Origin: Desulfomicrobium baculatum DSM 4028
Lineage (GTDB): Bacteria; Desulfobacterota; Desulfovibrionia; Desulfovibrionales; Desulfomicrobiaceae
Reading direction: 5' to 3'
Length of the DNA: 64,000 bases
NCBI RefSeq assembly: GCF_000023225.1
Contig: NC_013173.1
Span: forward strand, 3,598,501 to 3,662,500
A program made the position numbers and the translations under genes. Positions 4,980-26,091 of this stretch are shown here, piece after piece. The notes under the pieces were generated by a model. It made no database searches. It was not told where the DNA came from and worked only from the letters and a program-made list of their open reading frames with translations. The stretch's first letter is position 1. Each line of letters starts with the position of its first letter.

Positions 4980-6251
4980 ATGGCTCAATACGTTGGTGTT
5001 TCATTCAGACGCCAGGGACAAATATATTATTTTTTAGCTACGCCGTTTGTGCTCTCCATGCACGACATGGTCCTGGTCAAGACCGAGGAAGGGATCGGGT
5101 TCGGGGAGATCGTGGCCTTGCGCGACGACCTGCCCGAGGGCTTGGACCAGGAGTCGGTCAAGCCGATCTACCGCCCGGCCACGGCCGAGGATGTGGAAAT
5201 TGGACGCGAGAATGATGAATTGGCCAGGGACGCCCGCAAGTACTGCCAGAAATCCATGGCGCGGATGAATCTGGACATGAAGCTGGTGGACGTTGAGATC
5301 TACTTCGACAAAAGCAAGATGATCTTCTACTTCACGGCTCCGGGACGAGTCGATTTTCGGGAGCTGGTCAAGGATCTGGTGCGTAATTACCGCACCCGTA
5401 TCGAGCTGCGCCAGATCGGCGTGCGCCATGAAACACAGATGATCGGGGCGCTCGGCAACTGCGGCCAGATGTGCTGCTGCCGCCGCTATCTGCGGCGCTT
5501 CGAGCCGGTGACCATCAAGATGGCCAAGGATCAGAACCTGTTCCTGAACCCGGCCAAGATTTCCGGGGTCTGCGGCCGTCTGCTGTGCTGCCTGGCCTAC
5601 GAGAAAGAAAATTACGCGGATTTTCAGCGTCGCGCCCCCAAGCTGGGCCGTCGCTACATGACCACGCAGGGCCCCATGAAAACCTTGCGGGCCAATATGT
5701 TTCGGGATTCTGTAAGCGTCCTGAACGAAGTCGGGGATGAACTGGATTTTTCCCTGTCAGACTGGGCGGCCATGGTCCTGCCGGATCAGCCGCGCATGGC
5801 CGCGCGTGACGATGCCCCCGAAGACGTGCCGGCCGAACTGGCCGCGCTCATGGACCCGGAGGTCAGGAACAAGAGTTCCCAATCGGACCGCAGGACCAAA
5901 CCCCCACGCAGGGAACAGCGTTCCCGTCCAGGGGGCGAACGACCCCCTGGCCCCAGACCGGATCGTGCTGACCGTTCAGAGCGGCCTGAGCGCTCCGACC
6001 GCCCCGATCGTCCTGAGCGCTCCGATCGTTCCGACCGTCCTGAACGTGGTCCGTCCCGTCACAAAAACGATGACGCATCCGCTGCTCCCGCTGCACCCGC
6101 CGCGTCCGCCGCAGTTGGCGATCGCCCCGAGAGCAGGCCGGAGAGTTCCGGTCCGCCGCGTGAGCGCAAGGAATATCGGCCCAGGGACAAGCGGCGCAAG
6201 CCAGGTTCCGGGCGCAAGGACCATTCATCCAAGCCCTCTGGGCAGCAATAA
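4980..6251 (+). CDS. ricT: PSP1-domain protein RicT (YaaT-like) with long charged tail
   Basis: Matches the PSP1/YaaT family. In Bacillus, RicT belongs to the Fe-S-containing RicAFT complex that acts with RNase Y in mRNA processing. Residues 1-270 form the domain, with Cys-rich sequences GNCGQMCCCRRYL and SGVCGRLLCCLAYE (about residues 160-205) that fit Fe-S ligation. Usual length is about 270-300, but this protein has 423 residues: the extra C-terminal part is an Arg/Asp/Pro/Glu-rich, probably disordered tail with DRPERS-type repeats, then an Ala-rich stretch and a basic end. AGGAT precedes the ATG. metG follows after 24 bases. Confidence 0.85.
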   Translation: MAQYVGVSFRRQGQIYYFLATPFVLSMHDMVLVKTEEGIGFGEIVALRDDLPEGLDQESVKPIYRPATAEDVEIGRENDELARDARKYCQKSMARMNLDMKLVDVEIYFDKSKMIFYFTAPGRVDFRELVKDLVRNYRTRIELRQIGVRHETQMIGALGNCGQMCCCRRYLRRFEPVTIKMAKDQNLFLNPAKISGVCGRLLCCLAYEKENYADFQRRAPKLGRRYMTTQGPMKTLRANMFRDSVSVLNEVGDELDFSLSDWAAMVLPDQPRMAARDDAPEDVPAELAALMDPEVRNKSSQSDRRTKPPRREQRSRPGGERPPGPRPDRADRSERPERSDRPDRPERSDRSDRPERGPSRHKNDDASAAPAAPAASAAVGDRPESRPESSGPPRERKEYRPRDKRRKPGSGRKDHSSKPSGQQ

Positions 6252-22695: not shown

Positions 22696-24687
22696 ATGCC
22701 TCAGATTCCTGTTAAAGACGTGATCAAGGGTCTGGCCTGCGCAGAGCCCGAACTCGTTGAGATTGATACCGACATTCTTATGGTCGGTGGTGGTATGGGT
22801 AACTGCGGTACTGCTTTTGAAGCAGTGCGCTGGGCCGACAAAGTTGGCGGCGACATCAAGATCCTCTTGGTTGACAAGGCTGCTGTCGATCGCGGCGGCG
22901 CGGTTGCTCAGGGTCTTTCCGCCATCAACACCTATATCGGCGAGAACGATGTTGACGACTATGTCCGCATGGTCCGCACCGACCTCATGGGTATTGTTCG
23001 CGAAGACTTGATCTACGACCTTGGCCGCCACGTGGATGACTCCGTTCATCTGTTCGAAGAATGGGGCCTGCCTTGCTGGGTCAAGAAAGACGGCAAGAAC
23101 CTGGACGGCGCTCAGGCCAAGAAAGAGGGCATGTCCCTGCGTTCCGGCGCAGCCCCTGTCCGCTCCGGCCGCTGGCAGATCATGATCAACGGTGAGTCCT
23201 ACAAGGTCATCGTTGCTGAAGCCGCCAAGAACGCCCTGGGTTCCGATCGTTACTTGGAGCGTATTTTCATCGTCAAGTTGCTGCTTGACGCCAAAACGCC
23301 CAACCGTATCGCCGGTGCCGTTGGTTTCTCTGTTCGTGAAAACAAAGTTTACGTCATCAAGGCCAACGCTATGTCCGTTGCTTGCGGTGGCGCTGTCAAC
23401 GTTTACCGTCCGCGCTCCACAGGTGAAGGCCTTGGTCGCGCTTGGTATCCCGTATGGAACGCCGGCTCCACCTACACCATGTGTGCTCAGGTTGGCGCTG
23501 AAATGACCATGATGGAAAACCGCTTCGTACCCGCCCGTTTCAAAGACGGTTACGGTCCGGTTGGCGCATGGTTCCTGCTCTTCAAGGCCAAAGCCACCAA
23601 CGCCAAGGGTGAAGACTATTGTGTCACCAACCGCGCCATGCTGAAGCCTTACGAAGATCGCGGTTACGCCAAGGGTCACGTCATCCCGACCTGTCTGCGC
23701 AACCACATGATGCTTCGCGAAATGCGCGAAGGTCGCGGTCCCATCTACATGGACACCGCCACCGCCCTGCAGACCACCTTCAAGGACCTGTCCAAGGCCG
23801 AGCAGAAGCATCTTGAGTCCGAAGCTTGGGAAGACTTCCTGGATATGTGTGTTGGTCAGGCCAACCTGTGGGCCGCCATGAACATCAAGCCTGAAGAACG
23901 CGGTTCCGAAATCATGCCCACTGAGCCTTACCTCCTCGGTTCGCATTCCGGCTGCTGCGGTATCTGGGTTTCCGGTCCGAACGAGCCTTGGGTTCCTGAA
24001 GAATACAAGGTCAAGGCTGACAACGGCAAGGTGTACAACCGCATGACCACCGTAAACGGTCTGTGGACATGTGCTGACGGCGTTGGCGCTTCTGGTCACA
24101 AGTTCTCCTCCGGTTCCCATGCTGAAGGCCGCATTGTCGGTAAGCAGATGGTCCGTTGGGTTGTCGATCACAAGGATTTCAAGCCCACGCTGCCTGTTTC
24201 CGCTGCTGATCTGAAGAAAGAAATCTACGAGCCTTGGTACACCTACGAGCAGTTCAAGGGTGCATCCACTGATCCGGTAGTCAACCCGAACTACATCTCC
24301 CCCAACAACTTCATGATGCGCCTCATCAAGTGCACCGATGAATACGGCGGAGGTTGCGCTACCCTGTATACCACTTCCGACAGACTGCTCGACACCGGCT
24401 TTGCCCTGCTCGACATGCTGGAAGAAGACTCCAAGAAGCTGGCGGCTCGTGACCTGCACGAACTGCTCCGTTGCTGGGAACAGTATCACAGACTGTGGAC
24501 CGTTCGTCTGCACATGCAGCACATTCGTTTCCGTCAGGAAAGCCGTTACCCCGGTTTCTACTATCGTGCCGACTTCATGGGTCTGGACGATGCCAAATGG
24601 AAGTGCTTTGTTAACTCCAAGTTCGACCCGGCTACTGGTGTAACCGAGATATTCAAGAAGCATTACTACCAGATCATCCCTGTCTAG
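22696..24687 (+). CDS. aprA: adenylylsulfate reductase alpha subunit
   Basis: The FAD subunit that reduces APS to sulfite and AMP in the cytoplasm. At 663 residues it has the normal length. The dinucleotide-binding start (ILMVGGGMGNCGTAFEAVRW, about residues 26-45) places it in the fumarate-reductase-like flavoprotein family. The HSGCCGIWVSGPNEPW stretch and the C-terminal helical region are typical of AprA. AGGAGG lies upstream of the ATG. A strong terminator and then a long hairpin separate it from qmoA. Confidence 0.98.
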   Translation: MPQIPVKDVIKGLACAEPELVEIDTDILMVGGGMGNCGTAFEAVRWADKVGGDIKILLVDKAAVDRGGAVAQGLSAINTYIGENDVDDYVRMVRTDLMGIVREDLIYDLGRHVDDSVHLFEEWGLPCWVKKDGKNLDGAQAKKEGMSLRSGAAPVRSGRWQIMINGESYKVIVAEAAKNALGSDRYLERIFIVKLLLDAKTPNRIAGAVGFSVRENKVYVIKANAMSVACGGAVNVYRPRSTGEGLGRAWYPVWNAGSTYTMCAQVGAEMTMMENRFVPARFKDGYGPVGAWFLLFKAKATNAKGEDYCVTNRAMLKPYEDRGYAKGHVIPTCLRNHMMLREMREGRGPIYMDTATALQTTFKDLSKAEQKHLESEAWEDFLDMCVGQANLWAAMNIKPEERGSEIMPTEPYLLGSHSGCCGIWVSGPNEPWVPEEYKVKADNGKVYNRMTTVNGLWTCADGVGASGHKFSSGSHAEGRIVGKQMVRWVVDHKDFKPTLPVSAADLKKEIYEPWYTYEQFKGASTDPVVNPNYISPNNFMMRLIKCTDEYGGGCATLYTTSDRLLDTGFALLDMLEEDSKKLAARDLHELLRCWEQYHRLWTVRLHMQHIRFRQESRYPGFYYRADFMGLDDAKWKCFVNSKFDPATGVTEIFKKHYYQIIPV

Positions 24688-24697
24688 TTTATGGGCC

Positions 24698-24730
24698 AAA
24701 AGGCTGCGGGTCCTTCCCGCAGCCTTTTTT
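24698..24730 (+). terminator. aprBA terminator
   Basis: AAAAGGCTGCGGG-TCCTT-CCCGCAGCCTTTTTT: an 11-13 bp stem with a 5-base loop and a T run. Confidence 0.93.
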
Positions 24731-24741
24731 CTCTATCAGGA

Positions 24742-24807
24742 AATAGAATGGTCTATGCATGATCTGTAACCTCTGGTAGTTATAGATTATGCTTGGGCCA
24801 TTCTATT
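24742..24807 (+). promoter_or_regulatory. long hairpin in the aprA-qmoA intergenic region
   Basis: Bases 24742-24770 pair with 24779-24807 around the 8-base loop CTCTGGTA. Of 29 positions, 24 are Watson-Crick, four are G-U wobbles in plus-strand RNA (24752/24797, 24754/24795, 24761/24788, 24766/24783) and one is U-U (24756/24793). Read on the minus strand the wobbles become C-A mismatches, so the fold fits only RNA made in the qmo direction. No T run follows directly, so it is not a normal terminator. It ends 42 bases before the qmoA ATG. It may be an RNase III processing site, an mRNA-stabilising stem, a regulator-binding leader or a small RNA. Confidence 0.6.
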
Positions 24808-24849
24808 CATTTTTACGGCCTTCAACTTAAGTGCTCTGGGAGGAATCGA

Positions 24850-26091
24850 ATGGCTAGCAACAGCATACTTGTCATAGGTGGTGGCTTCGCCGGAATCACC
24901 GCCGCCCTCGAGGCCGCTGAGATCGGTCATGAGGTCTTCATCATTGAGAAGACCCCTTTTCTGGGTGGACGCGTTATGCAGCTGAACAAATATTTCCCGA
25001 AGCTGTGTCCACCTTCATGCGGTTTGGAAATTCAGTATCAGCGGATTAAGAACAACCCCAATGTGAAGTTTTTTACTTTGGCCGAAGTGACCAAGGTAGA
25101 CGGCAGCGTTGGAAATTATGAGGTTACGGTACAGATCAAACCGCGCTACGCTGGTCCCAGCAGCCCCGATCTTTCCGATTTGTGTGACGATCTTTCCACG
25201 GAAGTGGTCAACGACTACGAGTTCGGTTTGGCCACGCGCAAGCCCGTCTACATGGATGCGCCGTTTGCTTTTCCGCAGCGCTATGTTGTGGACAAGGCCA
25301 GCCTGAGCGACTCGGACAAGAGCAAAGTCCAGAAATGTGACTATCTCGATCTGACCGAGGAAGAAAAGACCATCACTTTGAGCGTTGGATCCATCATCAT
25401 CGCCACCGGATGGAAGCCTTACGACGTGACGAATCTGTCCAACCTGGGTGCGGGCGCGGTCAAGAACTGTATTTCCAACATGCAGATGGAACGCCTCGCA
25501 TCGCCCTACGGCCCGACAAACGGCGCGATTCTTCGGCCTTCCGACAACCGCGCGCCGAAAAAGATCGCTTTCGTTCAGTGCGCCGGGTCCCGTGACGAAA
25601 ATCATCTCCATTATTGTTCGTACATTTGCTGCATGGCTTCCTTGAAGCAGGCGCAATATGTCCGCGAGCAGTATCCTGACGCGGAAGTGACCATCTATTA
25701 CATTGATTTGCGGACTCCTGGCCGCTACGACAATTTCGCCAAGAAGATTCTGGCGGATGAGAAGATCTTTGCCGTCAAAGGCAAGGTCGCGGCGGTTGAA
25801 CAGGACAGCGCAGGCGATGACGTGTGGGTCACCGTGGAAGATGCGGTGTCGTGCTCCAAGTCTGTCGAACGTTTCGATCTCGTGGTTCTGGCCACAGGAA
25901 TGCAGCCCAGCCTGGCCGGCGCTTCTCTGCCCATCGATGTCCCGGTTGATGCCGAAGGCTTCATTGTTGGTGGGGAGGAAAAAGGTATTTTTGCCGCGGG
26001 CTGTGCCAAACAACCTCTGGACGTTATGAAGTCGGCCCAGTCTGCCACCGGGGCAGCGATGAAAGCGATCCAGACGGTGAGGGGGAGGTAG
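24850..26091 (+). CDS. qmoA: quinone-interacting oxidoreductase subunit QmoA
   Basis: The 413-residue HdrA-like flavoprotein of the Qmo complex, which links membrane quinol oxidation to APS reductase. SILVIGGGFAGITAALEAAE at the N-terminus is the FAD-binding fold, and the Cys-containing stretches FPKLCPPSCGLEIQYQRI and CSYICCMASLKQAQY fit QmoA. The start at 24850 is favoured by GGGAGG about 7 bases upstream; a longer in-frame start at 24793 would lie inside the leader hairpin. qmoB begins 3 bases after its stop, so they are tightly coupled. Confidence 0.95.
   Translation: MASNSILVIGGGFAGITAALEAAEIGHEVFIIEKTPFLGGRVMQLNKYFPKLCPPSCGLEIQYQRIKNNPNVKFFTLAEVTKVDGSVGNYEVTVQIKPRYAGPSSPDLSDLCDDLSTEVVNDYEFGLATRKPVYMDAPFAFPQRYVVDKASLSDSDKSKVQKCDYLDLTEEEKTITLSVGSIIIATGWKPYDVTNLSNLGAGAVKNCISNMQMERLASPYGPTNGAILRPSDNRAPKKIAFVQCAGSRDENHLHYCSYICCMASLKQAQYVREQYPDAEVTIYYIDLRTPGRYDNFAKKILADEKIFAVKGKVAAVEQDSAGDDVWVTVEDAVSCSKSVERFDLVVLATGMQPSLAGASLPIDVPVDAEGFIVGGEEKGIFAAGCAKQPLDVMKSAQSATGAAMKAIQTVRGR

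Follow-up and report, generated by a model that had tools for sequence, protein, structure and literature searches.

A long conserved RNA hairpin between aprA and qmoA in the Desulfovibrionales

The aprA–qmoA spacer and its hairpin

The window, that is, the whole 64 kb stretch of Desulfomicrobium baculatum DNA that was analysed, contains sat, aprB, aprA, qmoA, qmoB and qmoC as open reading frames (ORFs) with one shared direction; the names follow established knowledge of these families. The features of the aprA–qmoA region are as follows.

22696–24687, + strand: aprA (adenylylsulfate reductase alpha subunit), an ORF whose homologues precede qmoA in almost every locus inspected
24698–24728, + strand: intrinsic terminator of aprBA, a 13-pair stem and a T run (terminator scan)
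24742–24770, + strand: 5′ arm of the hairpin, with the conserved block UGGUCU at 24749–24754 (fold, alignment)
24771–24778, + strand: apical loop of 8 nt (fold, alignment)
24779–24807, + strand: 3′ arm of the hairpin, carrying at 24795–24800 the conserved block GGGCCA, order-wide RGGCCR (fold, alignment)
24808–24837, + strand: linker from the hairpin to the ribosome-binding site, with TTTTT at 24810–24814 and a common GGCC at 24817–24820 (sequence)
24838–24844, + strand: Shine-Dalgarno sequence GGGAGGA of qmoA (sequence)
24850–26091, + strand: qmoA (QmoABC quinone-interacting oxidoreductase), the downstream gene (ORF, homologue searches)

The hairpin (24742–24807) has 28 of its 29 arm positions paired around the 8-nt loop. 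The positions that depart from Watson-Crick pairing are U-G at 24752 and 24754, U-U at 24756, and G-U at 24761 and 24766; the 28 pairs, four G-U wobbles, one U-U and 8-base loop described in the first-pass annotation match position by position. The base of the stem is A-U with the tail AUUUU, and the apical tip differs in length and sequence among genera. No other inverted repeat of the window combines length and complementarity as well. The 171-nt segment 24690–24860 folds with −76.1 kcal/mol on the plus strand (z −8.3, no shuffle equals it) and with −57.7 kcal/mol on the minus strand. A DNA search and the covariance model R1 both find a single copy in the genome. An upstream coding extension of qmoA (an open frame from TTG at 24793) was considered and rejected, being lost beyond the genus and its nearest relatives, for example through a stop in L035.

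The intrinsic-terminator scan flags the aprBA site, as the first-pass annotation had it, and does not flag the hairpin. The same annotation had called the hairpin no simple terminator on the ground that it lacks a T tract. That ground is only partly correct, and the argument loses force: TTTTT begins 2 nt past the stem (24810–24814), and runs of four or five T follow the hairpin in most species. A scan for sigma-70-like promoters found none in 24400–24900, and sigma-70-like sites show no excess in the aprA–qmoA leaders (5 against 9.3 expected). A separate promoter between aprA and qmoA was set aside for want of a consensus site; this lack of promoter-like sites is only suggestive of aprA and qmoA sharing one primary transcript.

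Conservation, covariation and strand

The order aprA, terminator, hairpin, qmoA is found in the spacer of all 16 genomes of the genus, and the structure recurs, despite large sequence change, in further genera of the family, such as those of L032, L035 and L036. Across the order, R1 gives matches at E ≤ 1, some of them weak, in 159 of 297 genomes and 40 of 55 genera, and aprA and qmoA flank the hairpin in all 32 loci checked (L127–L158). Among 395 genomes drawn across the phylum, the strong matches are confined to members of the order and the rest are weak; the weak ones elsewhere in the phylum (for example L159 and L161) look like chance hairpins and were discarded. One match, in G161 (genus g29, E 5e-5), comes from a genome with no QmoA match at E ≤ 1e-60.

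With strict filters, R1 misses or underscores divergent hairpins in genera g17 and g21 and in family f4 (L247–L257), and Solidesulfovibrio records score low. By inspection, the f4 loci have a long stem at the same position with the same 3′ arm. Because strict use of R1 passes over such divergent forms, we count the hairpin in all six family labels, f4 by inspection only. The hairpin is missing or unrecognisable in g12 (Desulfovibrio sensu stricto), where R1 gives weak matches only, and, by the anchored search and R1, in g11, g16 and g18 of family f3 and a few others. The g12 leaders (L113, L116, L118, L120 and L243) carry a different, shorter G+C-rich stem, GCGGC...GCCGC, adjoining the qmoA ribosome-binding site.

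For the alignment, the qmoA upstream regions of 80 further loci of the order were added. Of 110 upstream sequences, 91 yielded the hairpin in an anchored search; 72 copies are distinct, two of which (L118 and L120) are spurious. The alignment A1 contains 43 diverse copies. RNAalifold gives a consensus helix of 23 pairs for A1, 18 of them with changes on both sides. In our own 24-pair helix, 93.5% of cells are paired, and 19 of the 24 pairs vary on both sides yet still pair, a level reached by 0 of 500 shuffles. Cells with both-side changes number 146 against 42 in shuffles, and pairing falls to 50% when the partner is slid by one column; the shuffles ignore relatedness, while the slid-partner controls take it into account. 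The conservation of UGGUCU/RGGCCR is partly built in, since the anchor pattern fixes most positions of the blocks and an energy threshold was applied. At columns 9-91, 12-88 and 14-86, the anchor pattern permits C-A as it does U-G, and the count of C-A there is zero; the wobble at pair 12-88 is retained in 34 of the 43 copies.

The wobbles also report on the strand. Read in the qmo sense, the cells of A1 contain 183 G-U and 10 A-C. As a qmo-sense A-C would be a G-U in the antisense RNA, this asymmetry indicates that pairing is maintained on the qmo-sense RNA. For the window locus, R1 gives 69.7 bits with the plus strand and 37.5 bits with the minus strand. The first-pass annotation had read the wobbles of the single sequence as a hint of selection on the qmo-sense RNA and had proposed a search for compensatory changes and for the hairpin in relatives. 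Both were found, and the covariation together with the G-U/A-C asymmetry strongly supports selection of the hairpin as RNA within qmo-sense transcripts.

A median of 62 nt separates the aprA stop and the 5′ block of the hairpin; between its 3′ block and the start of qmoA the median is 42 nt (quartiles 40.5–49.5), and the usual spacing to qmoA is 37–50 nt. Two long spacers show the hairpin about 250 nt away from aprA, yet at 48 nt (L060) and 73 nt (L084) from qmoA. Longer linkers to qmoA (up to 182 nt) occur in g8, g43 and some of f3, where the stem lies near aprA. Of 70 unique leaders, 57 have a site resembling an intrinsic terminator ahead of the hairpin; the T run of these 57 sites is 6 in 14, 7 in one and 8 in three (at least 6 in 18 of 57). 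Within 14 nt past the 3′ block, the longest T run is 4 in 43 and 5 in 16 of the 70 leaders. It never exceeds 5, short of the U run of at least 6 that, with a G+C-rich stem, marks a terminator. The GGCC of the linker is common, though not universal, and in many species it is able to base-pair with the 3′ arm; as an alternative fold, this pairing found weak support and was not adopted. We speculate that the GGCC could form a small 5′-terminal stem if the long stem were cut.

Stems in other orders and comparable RNA elements

The qmoA leaders of other orders were examined with a strict test (at least 20 ungapped pairs with at most two mismatches, and with terminators filtered out to the extent that the rule permits). 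Twelve of 60 leaders gave hits, of which three are terminators (L298, L329 and L331) and about nine are not. The latter come from few lineages and are unrelated in sequence (L283, L288, L291, L292 and L317; L290 and L294; L282; L285). Random-window controls gave 5 of 800 and 1 of 800 hits (6/1600), and leaders of other genes, after mis-sorted qmoA leaders had been taken out, about 1 of 86. Within the order itself, the test is passed by 31 of 80 leaders, many stems there being bulged. A looser count of strong hairpins did not separate qmo leaders from controls, because G+C-rich sequence yields many imperfect stems; the strict test alone did so. The strict hits suggest that a long stem before qmoA arose or was rebuilt more than once, in a sample that is small and clustered by lineage. 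Unrelated stems in the same place favour a structural role.

The stems in the qmoA leaders of other orders are near-perfect, 20–30 bp long and usually located behind the aprBA terminator. L186 (Desulfohalobiaceae) has a perfect-looking inverted repeat of 28 pairs upstream of a short ORF at 5286, downstream of qmo. L271 (G027:C2:121515-122807) contains a QmoA/HdrA-like frame of about 1022 residues with one in-frame TGA, possibly encoding selenocysteine.

No Rfam family reaches its gathering threshold in the window. The sub-threshold matches are microRNA models with at most 30 bits against cut-offs of at least 60, and a known RNA family, riboswitches included, was thus rejected for lack of a match at curated scores. 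We found no paper describing the hairpin in a search that covered subscription papers sparsely, so it may be noted elsewhere. The alignment and the searches identify the hairpin as a functional RNA element, seemingly undescribed, in a core pathway of energy metabolism.

In kind, the hairpin resembles the intergenic stem-loops of selective RNA processing and stabilisation (SRPS), as in the cip-cel operon of Clostridium cellulolyticum (PMC4423207). Common to both are a strong intergenic stem-loop in a gene cluster whose members are required in unequal quantities, and orthologous stems kept among related species. SRPS stems are mostly no classical terminators; the qmo hairpin is passed over by the terminator scan but has 4–5 T behind it. 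A stable stem-loop in the spacer of a cluster, by which SRPS is recognised, is present here. The qmo hairpin, a candidate member, differs in that it covaries order-wide, follows a separate terminator and lies nearer the downstream start codon than the 3′-end stems of SRPS do. RNase III processing stems occur in bacterial mRNA leaders and spacers and need about 20 bp. The qmo hairpin shares with them a leader or spacer position and more than 20 bp of near-perfect double strand (28 of 29 positions), with an RNase III gene present, but has strong basal sequence conservation, which is no trait of RNase III substrates, and its cleavage is a prediction. With an intrinsic terminator it shares the succession of A tract, stem and short U tract. 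It departs from one in a stem about twice as long, an A-U base, a U run of only 4–5, a spacing to the next start codon that hardly varies, and the presence of an ordinary terminator ahead of it.

Possible role in qmo expression

We favour, at a probability of roughly 0.45, a cis-acting processing or stability element of the qmo leader, which would shape the 5′ end of a qmo mRNA derived from aprBA read-through. The data show the structure, its conservation and selection as qmo-sense RNA, its location between aprA and qmoA and its single copy; what we infer is read-through transcription, processing or protection, and an effect on the Apr:Qmo ratio. Transcription of aprBA would partly pass the aprBA terminator, and a long double-stranded stem would form directly before the qmoA ribosome-binding site. 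The stem would determine where the qmo message has its 5′ boundary, either by guiding ribonucleases or by holding them off: it could be cleaved by RNase III, or it could shield the 5′ side from RNase E and exonucleases. The outcome would be AprBA and QmoABC in different amounts from one locus. We count for this reading the covarying pairs (19/24) with the failure of the slid controls and the strand bias; the position between aprA and qmoA, close to qmoA even in the long spacers; the terminator ahead in most leaders with no promoter-like enrichment; a stem longer than the RNase III minimum and the presence of the RNase III and RNase E/G genes; and the unrelated stems in about 9 of 60 leaders of other orders against 6 of 1600 windows. 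Counted against it are UGGUCU/RGGCCR blocks more conserved than a purely structural stem requires (partly through the selection of copies), the 4–5 T after the stem in most species, and the stem being near aprA in g8, g43 and some of f3 and missing in g12. Among the candidates in the first-pass annotation, a small RNA of its own ranks lowest, as the hairpin keeps its place before qmoA.

One alternative is a second, partial terminator in tandem after that of aprBA, whose stem and short U tail would drop some polymerases and so lower qmo with respect to apr. An A-tract on the 5′ side, the run of four or five T that 59 of 70 leaders have past the 3′ block, and the TTTTT of the window would suit such a role, which we think possible, if on the unlikely side. 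The stem, however, has 24–28 pairs and an A-U base instead of being short and G+C-rich, the scan flags the aprBA terminator only, and the U run is shorter than those of the upstream terminators; termination would need neither the conserved basal sequence nor the near-constant distance to the start codon. Another alternative is a regulator-bound leader, in which a protein or other partner would recognise the conserved double strand at the stem base and govern how the qmo mRNA is translated or how stable it is. The conserved block with its retained wobble at pair 12-88, the closeness to the ribosome-binding site and the linker GGCC, pairable with the 3′ arm in many leaders, are in line with this, yet the hairpin has no conserved loop or junction of the kind typical of most known binding leaders, there is no candidate partner, and stems of unrelated sequence serve at this site in other lineages. 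We consider such a leader rather unlikely.

Viewed from aprA, the hairpin may instead be a 3′ stabiliser of the aprBA mRNA, with read-through transcripts trimmed to the stem and the abundant apr message protected, as happens in known SRPS operons. In PMC4423207, the stabilising stems mostly lie at the 3′ end of the abundant upstream gene, and in most species about 60 nt separate the aprA stop and the qmo hairpin. That end, though, is already guarded by the hairpin of the aprBA terminator, and the long spacers (L060 and L084) place the qmo hairpin close to qmoA and away from aprA, which leaves this role improbable. The near-perfect inverted repeat and its conserved basal sequence would also be expected of a palindrome or protein-binding site in the DNA, but the 183 to 10 wobble asymmetry rules out a DNA operator and, with the compensatory changes, effectively refutes any DNA-level site; a repeat or mobile element (REP or MITE) is rejected by the one genomic copy. 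Either is scarcely credible.

A bolder proposal, which we hold to be doubtful, is that the hairpin defines a new cis-regulatory RNA family of the Desulfovibrionales. A dedicated protein or RNA partner would recognise UGGUCU/RGGCCR and tune QmoABC to AprBA, and hence the flow of electrons into sulfate respiration; other sulfate-reducing orders would have evolved unrelated stems in the same place for the same purpose.

In dissimilatory sulfate reduction, Apr and Qmo provide the electron link, and our literature search found no description of RNA-level control of their relative amounts. The alignment and the covariance model suffice to propose a new RNA family, and the unrelated stems that recur in other orders make a structural role directly testable. 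The stem, kept in about 40 genera, offers a well-defined RNA target, readily changed by mutation, in a pathway central to energy metabolism.
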